From a virus, in the IMG/VR virus record IMGVR_UViG_3300037847_006595, positions 1 to 40,100 of that record: 40,100 nucleotides of DNA; one strand, 5' to 3'. Below are positions 5,017 to 40,100 of this stretch, piece by piece (position 1 is the first letter of the stretch; every line of letters begins with the position of its first letter). The translations under genes and the position numbers were made by a program. The notes under the pieces were generated by a model. That model was not told where the DNA came from, ran no database searches, and was given only the letters and a program-made list of their open reading frames with translations.

Positions 5017-5832
5017 ATGCTAAACGAAGAAACATTACAAACAGCAAAGTATTTAAGTAAAGAAAATATTAAATCACTTGCACCAGCAGTATTTGCTAAA
5101 ACACCTAGTAGTGAGGTGTCAAAACACTATACTCATATTCCAACAGAAAGAGTTATTGATGATATGGAGTTATTGGGTTGGAAAGTTATTGAAGCTAAGG
5201 AAGTAAAAGCAAGAAAAAAATCAACTAGAGGTTTTCAAAAGCACTTATTAGTGTTTAGAAATGATGAAGTTGTTATTAATGGTAAAGATGGTGATACAGT
5301 TTTTCCACAAATATTAATGACTAATTCTCATGATGGTAAAAATGCTTTTAATTTTGAAGCAGGTTTATATAGATTAGTTTGTTCTAATGGATTGGTAATT
5401 GCCGATACAAGATTTGAGTCAGTTAAAATGAGACATATGGGTTATTCATTTGATGATTTACAAGTTAAAATCAAAGAAATGGTTGAAAATCTTCCATTAA
5501 CAGTTGAATCAATGAATAAAATGAAAGCTACAGAGTTAGAGCAAAAACAAATTTTAGATTTTGCTAAAGAAGCTTTAAATACTAGATTTAATGAGAATGA
5601 ATTAAATAGAATTAAAATAGATATGGATGAATTCATCAAACCAGTTAGAAAAGAAGATGAAGGAAAAGATCTATGGTCAGTATTTAATGTAGTTCAAGAG
5701 AAAATTATTGATGGAGATTTTGAATATATTGCAGGTGGTAAGCTTAGAAAAGCTAGAGAAATTAAAAATTTCAAGCAAGATATGAAAATAAATAAAGAGT
5801 TATTTAATGTTGCTTTAGAGTATGCCTCATAA
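5017..5832 (+). CDS. DUF932 family protein
   Basis: The 271-residue protein matches the DUF932 (YfjQ/YubP-like) pattern found on phages, plasmids and integrated elements. It has an N-terminal TERVIDDMELLGWKV segment, the KSTRGFQKHLLVFRN strand region (residues about 69-83), the hallmark FEAGLYRLVCSNGLVIAD (about 113-130), then a long helical C-terminal half. Its biochemical role is not established. It has the AATCAAGGTTATG start context and its own promoter P5. It overlaps the nucleotidyltransferase gene by 11 bases, so the two may be co-expressed. Confidence 0.85.
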   Translation: MLNEETLQTAKYLSKENIKSLAPAVFAKTPSSEVSKHYTHIPTERVIDDMELLGWKVIEAKEVKARKKSTRGFQKHLLVFRNDEVVINGKDGDTVFPQILMTNSHDGKNAFNFEAGLYRLVCSNGLVIADTRFESVKMRHMGYSFDDLQVKIKEMVENLPLTVESMNKMKATELEQKQILDFAKEALNTRFNENELNRIKIDMDEFIKPVRKEDEGKDLWSVFNVVQEKIIDGDFEYIAGGKLRKAREIKNFKQDMKINKELFNVALEYAS

Positions 5833-6229
5833 GAATATAGTTTGGATAAATGGATGTTTTGATGTGCTCCACATGGGGCATATCAAACTCTTCCAAAGAG
5901 CAAGACAAATGGGTCTTCCGGTGATAGTGGGGATAGATACGGATGATAGAATTCAGTCGATGAAGGGAAAGGACCGTCCTATAAATAACTTACAACATAG
6001 GGTAGAATTTTTAAAAGCTATTAAATATATAGATGCGGTAGTATCTTTTTCAACGGATGATGAATTAATTGAAATAATTAAAGAACATTCCCCAAGATAT
6101 ATGTTAATTGGTGATGACTATAAAGATAAGAAGATAATAGGTAGTGAATTCATCAAGGAAATAATATATGTAAAGAGATATGGTGATCTAAGTTCTTCGG
6201 ATATTATAAACGGAGCCCACAACTCGTGA
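5822..6229 (+). CDS. Cytidylyltransferase-like nucleotidyltransferase (HldE C-terminal/TagD type)
   Basis: A 135-residue, single-domain nucleotidyltransferase that transfers a nucleotide to a sugar or alcohol phosphate. The opening NGCFDVLHMGH (residues 10-20) holds the HxGH catalytic motif. MKGKDRPINNLQHRVEFL (about 47-64) and LIGDDYKDKKIIGSE (95-109) are typical of the heptose-1-phosphate adenylyltransferase domain, and LSSSDII near the end supplies the ISSTxxI nucleotide loop. Sequence alone does not settle whether it uses ATP or CTP, or the acceptor. It could feed modified sugars for surface or DNA decoration. The late-type motif begins right at its stop, so it ends the early unit. Confidence 0.85.
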   Translation: MPHKNIVWINGCFDVLHMGHIKLFQRARQMGLPVIVGIDTDDRIQSMKGKDRPINNLQHRVEFLKAIKYIDAVVSFSTDDELIEIIKEHSPRYMLIGDDYKDKKIIGSEFIKEIIYVKRYGDLSSSDIINGAHNS

Positions 6230-34077: not shown

Positions 34078-34611
34078 ATGATATCATTAGTACAGTTATT
34101 AAAAGAAGTGAGTATACCCAAAAATAAATGGGTACCACTATCGGGCAATGATATAAAAGATTTAGAAGATGACATTCTAGATTTAATTCAAAATGCTTAT
34201 GGACCTATTGGAGGTCATCCTAATTATAAATCAGTAGGTGATTTAGCAGGATCTGATTATGAAATTATTGATTTAGACGATGACCCAGATTTAGATGCTG
34301 TTACAGTAACTAAACAAAGAGCGGGTGGTACTAAACACGTTGGTATAGGACATGATGGTACAAGTCCAGGTAAAAGAGGAGCAATAGGTCGTACAATTGA
34401 TCAATTAGACAAACCTTCAAATTACATTGAAGCATCAGGTGCTATAGAAAATATTTTACGTAAGGCAGGAGTAGTACAAGTTACAGATGAAGAAACAATT
34501 CGTAAAGCTTTAAAAGGTAAAGAAATAAAAATATACGATGATGGTACTTATGATAGAATTTTAGGTGGTAAAAAGTATAGAAAAACAATGTTTGGAAAAC
34601 CAAAAGTATGA
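34078..34611 (+). CDS. Late protein with prohead-type leader, 177 aa
   Basis: Begins MISLVQLLKEVSIPK. The first ten residues form a short hydrophobic/amphipathic helix ending in Leu-Lys-Glu, resembling T4 capsid-targeting leaders that are cut after Leu/Ile-x-Glu. The rest is acidic then basic (DYEIIDLDDDPDLDAV; RAGGTKHVGIGHDG) and ends with a KEIKIYDDGTYDRILGGKKY beta segment. I recognise no enzyme family. A close variant of the leader (LVQKLDEMSIPK) lies inside the 1047-residue protein. Late expression is indicated by the TATTTATAA site. The stop overlaps the kinase gene by four bases. Confidence 0.78.
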   Translation: MISLVQLLKEVSIPKNKWVPLSGNDIKDLEDDILDLIQNAYGPIGGHPNYKSVGDLAGSDYEIIDLDDDPDLDAVTVTKQRAGGTKHVGIGHDGTSPGKRGAIGRTIDQLDKPSNYIEASGAIENILRKAGVVQVTDEETIRKALKGKEIKIYDDGTYDRILGGKKYRKTMFGKPKV

Positions 34612-35405
34612 TAAAATTAATGCAATTACTAAAAGAGGCAACAGCATCTCCTAAAGCAATTATATTAGCAGGTGCGCCAGGAGCTGGAAAAGGATATATT
34701 CTTAAAGGATTAGATCTATCTGGTTTAACTACTTATAATATAGATTTTGACTTTGTTCCTTTATTAAAAAAAGCAGGTGTTAGTTTAGATTTAAAAAATG
34801 CTACCCCTGAAGAAAGAAGCCAAGCAGCTAAATTAATGAGACAAGCTACTGCAAAATTAAAGGATGAGGATTTACCTAAAGCAATAGCTAGTAGAGAGTC
34901 ATTTATATTAGATGGTACTGCTGCATCATATAGACAAACAGAAAAATTAAAAGAAGAACTAGAAAATGCTGGTTATGAAGTATTTATGCTTTATGTTTAT
35001 ACTGATTTAGAACGTTCATTAAAACAAAATCAAGATAGATTTGATAAATCAGGTGATAGAAGTTTAGCACCAGCTATTGTAATGAGAACATGGAATGATG
35101 TTACTAAAAATTATCAACCATATAAAGATTTATTTGGTAATAATTTTGTATCTGTATCAAATTTGTTACAAGATGAAAAATTAGATAATTTAGAAGATAT
35201 AGTAAAAAAATATTTAGATCCTTTTAAACCACAAAATACAAAACCTAAAACTGATGCCCAAAAAGCAAGATCAGCTAAATCTAAAGCTCAATTAAATGCT
35301 GATATTAAAGCATTATTATCAGATGAAGGTGTTAAAGACATAATTGATAATTCAGTTTCAAGAGAAGAAGCTCAAGCAAAAATAAAATCATTTATAAATG
35401 GGTAG
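34608..35405 (+). CDS. P-loop kinase (zeta-toxin/AAA-like) with leader, 265 aa
   Basis: Leader MIKLMQLLKE-ATASPK, the same design as the preceding protein and with the Ala after Glu preferred by T4 prohead protease. Directly after it comes the kinase fold: IILAGAPGAGKGYIL (Walker A, about residues 18-32), the YNIDFD strand (38-43) and ESFILDGTAASY (about 107-118). VFMLYVYTDLERSLKQNQDR follows (Walker B-like strand and LID arginines). This resembles zeta toxin and small-molecule kinases. The C-terminal 60 residues are Lys/Ala rich and probably flexible. The substrate could be a nucleotide-sugar or nucleoside. The stop overlaps the next start by eight bases in another frame. Confidence 0.8.
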   Translation: MIKLMQLLKEATASPKAIILAGAPGAGKGYILKGLDLSGLTTYNIDFDFVPLLKKAGVSLDLKNATPEERSQAAKLMRQATAKLKDEDLPKAIASRESFILDGTAASYRQTEKLKEELENAGYEVFMLYVYTDLERSLKQNQDRFDKSGDRSLAPAIVMRTWNDVTKNYQPYKDLFGNNFVSVSNLLQDEKLDNLEDIVKKYLDPFKPQNTKPKTDAQKARSAKSKAQLNADIKALLSDEGVKDIIDNSVSREEAQAKIKSFING

Positions 35406-38400
35406 AGTATTAGCAGCATATGGAGGAGGTTTTAAACCACCTACAAGAGGTCATTTTGAAATAGTAAAAACAGCACTTAATGACTTTCCAGAAATAGATG
35501 AATTTTATATCTATGTAGGAGGTAAAGTACGTGATGGTATAGATCAATTTGAAGCAATTCAGATTTGGGACATATATAAAAAATATTTAGCTAATAAAGT
35601 TGATATACAACCTTCAAAATCTCCAATTGGAGATATTTTACGTTTAGCTAAAGATAATCCTCAAGATATTGTTTATTTTGTTATAGGATACAGAGAAGGT
35701 AGACAAGATGATTTAGATGATGTATCTGCAAGAACAGATAATTTAAAAGAAAAATATCCTAATATTATAGTTAAAGTAATTCCTACTTATGATCCTAATA
35801 TGAGTGGTACTAATGCTAGAAAGGTATTAGATAATGAAGAAGAATTTATTAAATTTTTACCTTATGAAGTAGAAGAAAAATCTGAAGTATTTAAATTAGT
35901 ACAAAAGTTAGATGAAATGTCAATTCCTAAATTTGATGTAGTAAAACCTATTATTGACAAATTTTTAGGAGGAGCAGAAAAAGCTGGTAAAAAATTATTA
36001 GAAATAGTTAAAAGAGAAGGCAAACAAACTTTAGTATTAGTTAAAGAAATAGCAGAGTATGTAATATCAGGTGAAAAACCAAACCCAGCTGAAGAAAAGA
36101 AAATAAATAAACAGTTATTAGATCTAGGGTTTTTAGCATTATTAGGAATAACTGGTAATATCCCAGTATCTATAGTTGGTATTTTATATTGGATACTTCA
36201 AGAATCAGGTGTTGCTAAAGAATTTTTAAAATTAGATGAAATAGCTTTAATAGAAGAATGGCTTAATGAAGCAGATCCTAAAAAAGGAACAGGTAAAAAA
36301 CCTAAAGGATCAAGTAGAAGATTATACACAGATGAGGATCCTAAAGATACTGTAGGTGTTAAGTTTAGTACTAGACAAGATATAGTAGACACTTTAGGTA
36401 AAGCATCGTTTAAAGCTAAATCACATGCTAGACAATCTCAAATTATTAATTTAATACACCAAAGAGTAAGAGCAGCACTAGCCAGAACTAAGGACCCAGA
36501 TAAGAAAAAGAAACTAAAAGCTGGATTTGAATATATTAAAGGTAAAAAAGAAGCATCTAAAAAGAAAACACAGCGTTTAAAAAAACAAAAGAAAGAAAAT
36601 GTAGCACCTAATCATAATGGTAAAGCAGCTCCATTTGGATCTGGATATAAAGAATTAAATGAAGGTAAGTATGATTCTTTAGTAACTAAATTAGCTGGTT
36701 TTACTTTAAATGCTTGGAAAGGTGATTTTGAAGATGGTCAAAATAAAGGACTTATTGAAGTAGAAGTAGGTCCTGGTTTAGATTTTGATTACCCACATTT
36801 AAAATTTATATATAAAGCAGAAGCTAAATTTGGTGGTTTTTATAGAACAGCAGGAGCAGCTATACCTGATCCACCTAAAGGTTTACCTAGAGTTAGATTA
36901 AATTATAATATTCCTATAGATGAATTACCTAGAATGTGGGAACGAATTTCTATGGATATTAGAAATACTATTAGACATGAAATAGAACATTTAATGCAAT
37001 CAGGACCTAATGTTAAAAAAGGTAAAGAAAAAGCATCAGATAGATCTGAAAGAGAAGAATTAGCAACAGGTAAAAAACCATGGTGGAAATTTTGGAGAAA
37101 AACTTTAGGCACTCCTGAGTATTATAAATTAGAAAAAGAAATAGACGCTAATTTAGAAGGTTTATATTTAAAAGCTAAAAAATCAAGACAACCTTTAGAG
37201 CAAGTAATTGATAATTATTTGCAGTATGATTTAAATTTACCTATAGAGGATAGAGAAGATATAAAAGCTTTATGGAAAAAAAGAGCACCTGAATTAAATA
37301 TACCATTAGAGGAAGGAGATACATATGAAAAGATGGCTGCTAAAGGTAAAAAAGCAGGTAATTTAAAACAAGGTACAGTTAGAAAAAGATTAGGCATTCC
37401 TAAAGATAAAAAAATCCCATTATCTAAAATTAATAAAGAATTATCTAGATTAAAGAAAATGGATAAAGATAAAGATAAAAAAGGTGTACAATTAGGAGAT
37501 AAAAACCAAAAATATTATAAAGCACTACAGTTATCTAAAACATTAAAAACTACTACTAACGTAAATGAAAGTGCTACATATTCCCAACATATAGATCTTA
37601 TAGGGTTTTTAGCTAAACTAACTCAATATATGTTAGATAAAGGTATGAATATTGAACCATTACCAAATTTAGAATTTATTGATGGTGATATTGAAAATGC
37701 TAAACAATTTCTTGGTAAAACAGCGTATTATGACCCAAATACTCAAACTATAGCATTATATACTGAAGGTAGACATCCTAAAGATATAGCGCGTTCATAC
37801 GCTCATGAAATGATACATCATATACAGTATTTAGAAAATAGGTTGGGTAATGTACAAACTACTAATACATTGGAGGATGATAACCTTGATAAATTAGAAC
37901 AAGAAGCTAATTTAAGAGGTACAATGACGTTTAGAAACTTTACAGATTCTTTAAATGAAGTATATAAACATAAATTTGGGTTTAATGATAAATTGGGTAA
38001 GGATCCTTTTGGATTAAACCAATTTGCAAGAGAAATAGCTACAGAAGTAGAAAACGCTATGAATAAAAAAGAATATAAAATATTTTCGGATATGGATGGG
38101 GTCATAACTGACTTTAATGGTAGATTTGAAAAATACTCTGATGGTATTCCACCTTCAGAATACGAAAAAAGATTTGGTAAAGAAAAATTTTGGGAATTAG
38201 CTGATGGTGAAGGTGTAGCATTTTGGGTAGGCATGCCTTGGATGTCTGATGGTAAAACATATTGGGATTATATTAAAAATTATGATGTAGAATTATTATC
38301 ATCACCTTCAAGATCTCAAACATCTAGATTAGGTAAAAGACTATGGGTTAGAAATAATTTACCTGGAGTTAAATTAACATTAGCTCAAGCAGCTAAAAAA

Positions 38401-38541
38401 CAAAATTATGCAGCACCAAACCATATATTAATTGATGATAGAGAATCGAATATTGAACAATGGAGATCACAAGGTGGTATAGGAATATTACACACATCAG
38501 CTGCTGATACAATTGAACAACTTAAACAACTAGGATTATGA
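35398..38541 (+). CDS. Multi-domain late protein: nucleotidyltransferase, membrane segment, two zincins, HAD phosphatase (1047 aa)
   Basis: Domains in order. (1) Residues 1-160: HIGH-type nucleotidyltransferase, FKPPTRGHFEIV at 12-23 and MSGTNARKVL at 135-144. (2) Residues 241-267: membrane-like segment. (3) Residues 295-400: Lys/Arg-rich region. (4) Residues about 425-600: zincin with HEIEH at 527-531 and a following LEKEIDANLEGLYLKA. (5) Residues about 725-850: second zincin with HEMIH at 803-807 and LEQEANLRG, so the two look related. (6) Residues 891-1047: HAD 5'-nucleotidase type, DMDGVITDF at 898-906 and ILIDDRESNIEQW at 1010-1022. Leu/Val-x-Glu steps fall in the linkers (LDE 171-173, LNE 289-291, LNE 420-422, VNE 722-724, LNE 852-854). 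LVQKLDEMSIPK (167-178) copies the leader of the 34078 protein. It is probably a virion cargo polyprotein; this is inference. Confidence 0.83.
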   Translation: MGRVLAAYGGGFKPPTRGHFEIVKTALNDFPEIDEFYIYVGGKVRDGIDQFEAIQIWDIYKKYLANKVDIQPSKSPIGDILRLAKDNPQDIVYFVIGYREGRQDDLDDVSARTDNLKEKYPNIIVKVIPTYDPNMSGTNARKVLDNEEEFIKFLPYEVEEKSEVFKLVQKLDEMSIPKFDVVKPIIDKFLGGAEKAGKKLLEIVKREGKQTLVLVKEIAEYVISGEKPNPAEEKKINKQLLDLGFLALLGITGNIPVSIVGILYWILQESGVAKEFLKLDEIALIEEWLNEADPKKGTGKKPKGSSRRLYTDEDPKDTVGVKFSTRQDIVDTLGKASFKAKSHARQSQIINLIHQRVRAALARTKDPDKKKKLKAGFEYIKGKKEASKKKTQRLKKQKKENVAPNHNGKAAPFGSGYKELNEGKYDSLVTKLAGFTLNAWKGDFEDGQNKGLIEVEVGPGLDFDYPHLKFIYKAEAKFGGFYRTAGAAIPDPPKGLPRVRLNYNIPIDELPRMWERISMDIRNTIRHEIEHLMQSGPNVKKGKEKASDRSEREELATGKKPWWKFWRKTLGTPEYYKLEKEIDANLEGLYLKAKKSRQPLEQVIDNYLQYDLNLPIEDREDIKALWKKRAPELNIPLEEGDTYEKMAAKGKKAGNLKQGTVRKRLGIPKDKKIPLSKINKELSRLKKMDKDKDKKGVQLGDKNQKYYKALQLSKTLKTTTNVNESATYSQHIDLIGFLAKLTQYMLDKGMNIEPLPNLEFIDGDIENAKQFLGKTAYYDPNTQTIALYTEGRHPKDIARSYAHEMIHHIQYLENRLGNVQTTNTLEDDNLDKLEQEANLRGTMTFRNFTDSLNEVYKHKFGFNDKLGKDPFGLNQFAREIATEVENAMNKKEYKIFSDMDGVITDFNGRFEKYSDGIPPSEYEKRFGKEKFWELADGEGVAFWVGMPWMSDGKTYWDYIKNYDVELLSSPSRSQTSRLGKRLWVRNNLPGVKLTLAQAAKKQNYAAPNHILIDDRESNIEQWRSQGGIGILHTSAADTIEQLKQLGL

Positions 38542-39354: not shown

Positions 39355-40100
39355 ATGGATAACTTTAATATAACTGGATACTTTAAGAAACAATATCTAA
39401 ATGAAATTGATAAAGATTTGGAGAAGAAGTTTTATAGTAATTTCCCTTCTGCAACACCCAAACCTCGCCTTTTACATAAAGAAGATGATGCCCAAATATT
39501 ATTAGCTGCTTTAAGAAAAGAGTTAGGCGATCTTAGATTTGATGATATGTTTAGAGGTGGTTCTTATAATGGTAGAGAAGGTTATTATTTAAGAACATTT
39601 GGTTTACAAGATTGGTCGGCTGATGCTATTCAAAAAGTAAAAAATGCTTTTGAAAAAGCAAATACACAAACTAAAAAATATAATTTTGAATTTTATGATA
39701 CTGATGATTATGAAATGGAATTTGGAGGTGATAGAGACTACCCGGCTTCAATTTCATTTTTCTCTATAGATAAAGCTAACATAAAAGAAGGTGTTGAAAA
39801 AGAAATGTTTACTTTTTTAGATGCTTTAAGAGACACAGGTGTAACTAATATGTTTGGAGCTGGTCCTTATTTATCAAGAGAATTTGGTTTAGATAAAAGA
39901 GAAGCTAGAGAAATATTAGCTAAATGGATGAGAAGTAAAGAAGAAGACCCAGATGAAATTGATAGAGATAGAATCTTTATGAAAGGTAAAGTTGATGAAA
40001 AAATTGACTTTGAATATGTACTAGATTTAAGAGATGAAAAAAAAGATATTGAAGATAGAATTGCTCAACTATATAGAGATATGGAACAAGAAGCTGAACC
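39355..40100 (+). CDS. Late protein with Leu-Asn-Glu leader (3'-truncated by window edge)
   Basis: Open from ATG at 39355 to the window end (248 codons visible). The leader MDNFNITGYFKKQYLNE ends in Leu-Asn-Glu at residues 15-17 followed by IDKDLEKKF, a third possible capsid-targeting/cleavage leader in this block. Beyond it the protein is charged and helical, with FLDALRDTGVTNMFGAGPYL and a following FGLDKREAREILAKWM, then an acidic coiled-coil-like stretch. No enzyme family is recognised. The rest of the gene lies outside the window. Confidence 0.8.
   Translation, partial: MDNFNITGYFKKQYLNEIDKDLEKKFYSNFPSATPKPRLLHKEDDAQILLAALRKELGDLRFDDMFRGGSYNGREGYYLRTFGLQDWSADAIQKVKNAFEKANTQTKKYNFEFYDTDDYEMEFGGDRDYPASISFFSIDKANIKEGVEKEMFTFLDALRDTGVTNMFGAGPYLSREFGLDKREAREILAKWMRSKEEDPDEIDRDRIFMKGKVDEKIDFEYVLDLRDEKKDIEDRIAQLYRDMEQEAE

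Follow-up and report, generated by a model that had tools for sequence, protein, structure and literature searches.

A group of late genes in a T4-like myovirus raises the question of how one phage could carry several unrelated enzymes into its head, and what part a long multidomain protein encoded among them would play. The DNA that we analysed, hereafter the window, is an entire IMG/VR record of 40.1 kb and a fragment of the phage genome. Baseplate proteins (gp25-like and gp6-like) and a late-sigma-like protein were recognised in it from sequence and genome order, and a primase and an exonuclease from PHROGs, while a megablast of the whole window against phage records gave no match. Among cultured relatives, the nearest that we found is Flavobacterium phage immuto (160 kb), which makes a Bacteroidota bacterium the probable host of the window's phage.

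A first-pass annotation had suggested that these genes encode virion cargo with short N-terminal leaders. All the strings that it quoted were present at their positions when we checked the open reading frame translations, and leaders ending in Leu-x-Glu do open three different proteins. The first is a putative cargo protein of 177 aa (34078..34611, + strand) that reads M-ISLVQLLKEVSIPK; its leader, MISLVQLLKE (34078-34107), is followed by VSIPK. The second is a Zeta-toxin-like P-loop kinase (34608..35405, + strand; Pfam Zeta_toxin, E 1.5e-17) with the N-terminus MIKLMQLLKEATASPK and the leader MIKLMQLLKE (34608-34637). The third, which the window end cuts (39355..40100, + strand), has the leader MDNFNITGYFKKQYLNE (39355-39405). 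A second LxE-punctuated polyprotein lies a few kb downstream of the first in related contigs (L041 8081-9988, L056 7545-9746, L073 19403-21007, L076 13099-14952 and L080 14551-16425) and has a module in common with it (module D in L056); gene 39355 may be a second polyprotein of this kind, of which the window has the first part. About 10-30 bases upstream of genes 6254, 13525, 16555, 29106, 34078 and 39355 we noticed TATTTATA, which precedes both cargo-region starts and is a possible late promoter element, its window total being not above chance. TATAAATA, searched over the window as a late promoter, gave an uninformative count (15 matches vs 16.4 expected), and a string near GAGAGGGTTCGTATATTTAC, common to the regions upstream of 2891, 5017 and 8836, is a possible early or middle promoter element.

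In T4, gp21 cleaves after L/I-x-E, and in the 10-residue leader of IPIII residues 4 and 7 serve targeting and residues 8 and 10 processing, which is blocked by Asp at position 10 (PMC9026906). The kinase leader has L or I at positions 4, 7 and 8 and E at position 10, the key positions of T4 IPIII, in 53 of 64 orthologs. Since 61 of the 64 keep the pattern M-x(1-3)-h-x2-h-[LIVMF]-x-E, the kinase leaders, judged from their sequences, are not a chance occurrence. Leaders are exchanged between orthologs, yet their xE ending is retained: the kinases of L046 and L028 carry a swapped leader (MDNFxxKKYxxEGxLLKE) that still ends in LLKE, and with these two included 63/64 kinase leaders end in LxE, the sole exception being LLKG. 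Likewise, the ortholog of the 34078 protein in the relative G001 is 91.5% identical and has an identical leader, and that in G002 (58403) has a different one, MSFNLQKYFKNQYLLE. Relatives of the 39355 protein with the same leader type retain the xE ending too.

A search for a gp21-type protease found none in the window, itself a fragment, but 14 of the 20 relative records have a member of the family (PF03420), among them every record of at least 59 kb and the close relative G001. In immuto, the propeptide of the major capsid protein carries LFE, LLE, ILE and VSE. The immuto polyprotein lies at 107-110 kb, and terminase, portal, gp21 and capsid protein at 119-128 kb. Within the 100-130 kb block, made up of the polyprotein and head genes, an early [LIVMF]xE is found in 22/31 ORFs, compared to 34/177 elsewhere (odds ratio 10, p 2.6e-8). 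A loose leader motif (positions 8-19) is weakly enriched over whole genomes, and clearly so only by genome block. From sequence and the literature on relatives, it is probable that the late genes encode head cargo with T4-type leaders and gp21-type sites.

The kinase is followed by a putative cargo polyprotein of 1047 aa (35398..38541, + strand), in which unrelated domains of disparate activity (NMNAT-like, basic, zincin-like, HAD) share one chain. The polyprotein suggested earlier is thus real and more extreme than proposed: it is modular, with sites at module borders, and further [LIV]xE sites that had been missed stand at residues 291, 422, 639, 724 and 854. All seven modules are read from the + strand. 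Module 1 is NMNAT/cytidylyltransferase-like (173 aa, 35398..35916) and ends in LDE before M (codons 35908-35916); its CTP_transf_like match has an E of 0.0047 in the window, under the Pfam cut-off, and of 3.1e-5 in G002. It is followed by a helical module 2, or B (118 aa, 35917..36270, ending in LNE before A), and a basic module 3, or C (131 aa, net charge +22, 36271..36663, LNE before G). Module 4, or MP1, is metallopeptidase-like with an RHExEH motif (217 aa, 36664..37314, LEE before G), module 5, or D, is again basic (85 aa, net charge +16, 37315..37569, VNE before S), and module 6, or MP2, is a zincin-like metallopeptidase with HEMxHH (130 aa, 37570..37959, LNE before V). Module 7 consists of a linker helix, DPFGLNQFAREI, and a HAD/5'-nucleotidase domain (193 aa, 37960..38538; phrog_2643, E 5.4e-23). 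The punctuation is not strict: the motif is missing from some junctions, no canonical [LIV]xE immediately precedes the HAD domain in the window's polyprotein, and the motif is found also within NMNAT.

Pfam gave no match for modules C, D, E, F and MP1; against phage records module D had none and module C a single weak one, in Pelagibacter phage HTVC033P; and a PDB sequence search with MP1 and MP2 returned no convincing match. In MP1, HExxH is invariant and the AF2 model has a pLDDT of 83, with no Foldseek match at E <= 0.001 and VIA as the best structural match (Z 4.1), which is too little to assign a fold. In MP2, HExxH and E110/E112 are invariant; IrrE is matched in sequence (E 7.5e-3), and the structure matches are tied (Wss1, Z 7.2; IrrE, 7.1; SPRTN-like, 6.7; ArdC, 6.2), so that the predicted fold is zincin-like. 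Going by its family alone, the NMNAT could, if it arrives at entry, help the cell to recover NAD+ when NAD-depleting defences act. A second cytidylyltransferase-like gene, stand-alone and without an obvious leader, lies elsewhere in the window (5822-6229; PF01467, E 1.4e-19).

One internal string had been taken for a near-copy of the 34078 leader. Residues 167-178 indeed read LVQKLDEMSIPK (bases 35896-35931) and 9 of the 12 residues agree, but this is not a duplicated leader. A DNA duplication was rejected: at the DNA level only 24 of 36 positions are identical, the codons for S, I and P differ, and relatives read KSEIWNIIRPAVNE or KEEVFNILRPVIKE at the same position. Because it is the regular NMNAT tail in relatives and its codons are unlike those of the leader, LVQKLDE is, on the sequence evidence, no internalised leader but the ordinary C-terminal end of the NMNAT module, with a cleavage-type site after it. 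Moreover, junctions have only P3-P1 of the motif in common, with near-maximal entropy at positions -4 to -15. The idea that an N-terminal tag became internal when tagged genes fused is therefore unsupported, at least at the site named.

Relatives of the polyprotein are encoded at 80 viral-contig loci, and they have been extensively shuffled. Among 37 non-redundant relatives the middle modules vary in kind, order and number, while NMNAT comes first (behind another segment in immuto) and HAD comes last or as a separate gene. Non-redundant lengths run from 418 to 1325 aa, some being cut by contig ends. As an example, the close relative G001, with a kinase 94.7% identical, has C, G, D, F and MP2 where the window has B, C, MP1, D and MP2. 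A given module can be preceded by an internal [LIV]xE or, where it is a stand-alone gene, by an N-terminal leader: MP1 is a gene of its own in L047, with the leader MQLTLSDILFE followed by GKYDSLV, and so is module C in L036, with the leader MVMIKLIDILFE followed by GDPKVGTGKK. In 10 of 11 stand-alone HAD genes the domain is preceded by an N-terminal extension that contains the motif; the L066 gene has no extension. Other cassettes seen in the family are a plastocyanin/azurin-like copper-binding domain (PF00127, E 7.9e-14) between two [LIV]xE sites in the L067, L066 and L073 polyproteins, and an extra HAD-type phosphatase besides the terminal HAD in those of L052 and L077 (weak PNK3P/acid-phosphatase-like matches).

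To relate the borders of this shuffling to the motif, we made motif-blind local alignments of the 37 non-redundant polyproteins and compared them with 1000 circular shifts as a null. Alignments start exactly on [LIV]-x-E 142 times (about 24 expected; permutation maximum 40) and end exactly on it 175 times (about 25 expected; permutation maximum 41), and the control motifs [LIV]xD and [LIV]xK show no comparable excess. For six modules, [LIV]xE stands exactly before the module start in 60 of 71 distinct upstream contexts, with positions -4 to -15 near random; the seeds for this count were picked with the site in view, which makes it less blind, and the breakpoint test is the cleaner of the two. 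Inside modules the motif is depleted (156 observed vs 278 expected from composition; reversed motif, 354).

We consider it likely, from these sequence patterns, that the 1047-aa polyprotein is cargo targeted to the head and that a gp21-type prohead protease cuts it between its modules. During prohead assembly the scaffold core would take up the polyprotein together with the leader-tagged kinase and the 34078 protein. Cuts by the protease after [L/I/V]-x-E at the module borders would next separate the NMNAT, the basic DNA-binding-like proteins, the zincin-like proteases and the nucleotidase, and these products would be ejected with the DNA and act as infection starts. Related phages would swap, gain and lose modules, and crossovers would persist at protease sites, since whatever module lands between two of them is turned into a released product. 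What counts against head targeting is that an N-terminal leader is absent from 33 of 69 polyproteins, the window's among them. Our guesses are that leaderless chains enter the head through the recurring internal helix (DPFGLNQFAREI) or by co-assembly with the leader-bearing kinase. In the window the kinase stop and the start of the leaderless polyprotein overlap by 8 bases (ATGGGTAG, window 35387-35415), a coupling that could bear on targeting.

The strongest competitor is that the chain, as a polyvalent protein, processes itself, its own zincin-like module MP2 cutting it before packaging or after injection. MP2 is present in 38 of 39 polyproteins, ArdC, IrrE and Wss1 are among the matches of its zincin-like fold, and the idea has a precedent in Iyer et al. 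(PMC5512222). We nevertheless find it unlikely: the junction motif equals the published L/I-x-E specificity of gp21, and it also occurs in the capsid protein propeptide and the kinase leader, both without a metallopeptidase. It is quite improbable, too, that [LIV]xE merely provides linkers or helix caps at the domain borders of a multidomain enzyme that works uncut, be it in virions or inside cells. This reading fits the fact that cleavage is so far unobserved, and P2 is often Asn (38/71), a possible hint of a structural role or of another preference; but the leaders of the stand-alone modules and of the kinase end in the same motif, module interiors are depleted of it, and [LIV]xD, which would make an equally good linker, is not enriched. 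That the motif is instead a DNA-level recombination hotspot, a short shared sequence and not a protease site, seems very improbable: GAA encodes the P1 Glu in 60 of 61 cases and with the common P2 Asn gives a short microhomology, but nine different codons (L, I, V, M) are used at P3, which speaks for selection on the protein, P2 and P1' are variable, and leaders at N-termini, where there is no junction, end in this motif as well.

The preferred reading, a prohead-cut cargo polyprotein, is built from parts of known kinds, namely T4 capsid targeting with gp21 processing and polyvalent proteins (PMC5512222). T4 IPI-III and Alt are alike in leader length, in key positions 4, 7, 8 and 10, in the L/I-x-E motif, in head gene context and in the gp21-type protease, found here in relatives. 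Each T4 cargo is one protein behind a leader (Alt also undergoes a C-terminal cut), whereas here a single chain joins many unrelated modules, almost every junction has a site, and the modules have been shuffled between phages. Polyvalent proteins (Iyer et al. 2017, PMC5512222) are likewise large late-region proteins of disparate domains with zincin-like peptidases, mosaic architectures and predicted delivery with the DNA, and their processing has been proposed to be mainly by their own metallopeptidase. Here, in contrast, the chain is punctuated by sites of a separate capsid protease, recombination breakpoints fall on these sites, and most module families that we tested have no Pfam match. In the giant phages phiKZ and SPN3US, gp21-like proteases trim head and ejected proteins after a short Glu-ending motif; as far as described, this removes propeptides, whereas here one chain is proposed to give rise to several enzymes.

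Phages of the Kyanoviridae have the same gene neighbourhood. Their distantly homologous nucleotidyltransferase, the virion cytidylyltransferase of cyanophages (T4-GC190; S-CREM2 ORF154), has a CTS-like leader, MKNFSSFLTE, and was found by virion mass spectrometry in S-SM1 (PMC3037559) and in S-CREM2 (PMC10665884); ORF154 has 286 aa and lacks the multi-module chain. Intermediate versions of 596-650 aa with several sites occur in HTVC008M and Melnitz. In the Pelagibacter phage HTVC008M the kinase starts with MIPFILKE, the NMNAT-like protein has 596 aa and the HAD protein starts with MKYSAFKAETLNLHLVQE; in the Methylophilales phage Melnitz the NMNAT-like protein has 650 aa, and its C-terminal part resembles, by eye, the second polyprotein of L073, L076 and L080. 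In S-CREM2, an F-type leader is carried by 5 of 28 non-structural virion proteins (6, 13, 14, 136 and 154) and by 0 of 167 undetected ones (p 4.4e-5, with a pattern tightened after the N-termini were seen; p 0.002 for a looser version). A broader leader motif is weakly enriched there (virion 18/52 vs undetected 41/167, p 0.11), so that the two sets are told apart by the stricter format alone. The virion-detected gp12 of S-CREM2 (L127, 7704-10313), annotated as Cas9, has a leader-like N-terminus, FASFMAE, which suggests that it is also head cargo. Virion proteomics of immuto was sought in PMC7077304, which mentions neither immuto nor mass spectrometry.

In the open-licence literature we found no description of a polyvalent protein whose prohead-protease sites double as shuffling borders. 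The swapping of parts exactly at sites of the capsid-maturation protease suggests a modular loading of many cargo proteins into the head. On balance, we lean towards a fuller version, in which one polyprotein packs a whole enzyme set into the head in equal copies and is cut in the prohead by the capsid-maturation protease, whose sites are the standard borders of shuffling, the gene being a rapidly evolving cassette array of early effectors. If this is true, T4-like phages would load several enzymes at once via a modular, protease-punctuated polyprotein, and it would become clear how polyvalent proteins can be processed without depending on peptidases of their own. It would also provide a sequence rule to predict the head contents of uncultured phages, and, with Flavobacterium phage immuto as a cultured relative, would open the way to direct tests of how injected effectors evolve.
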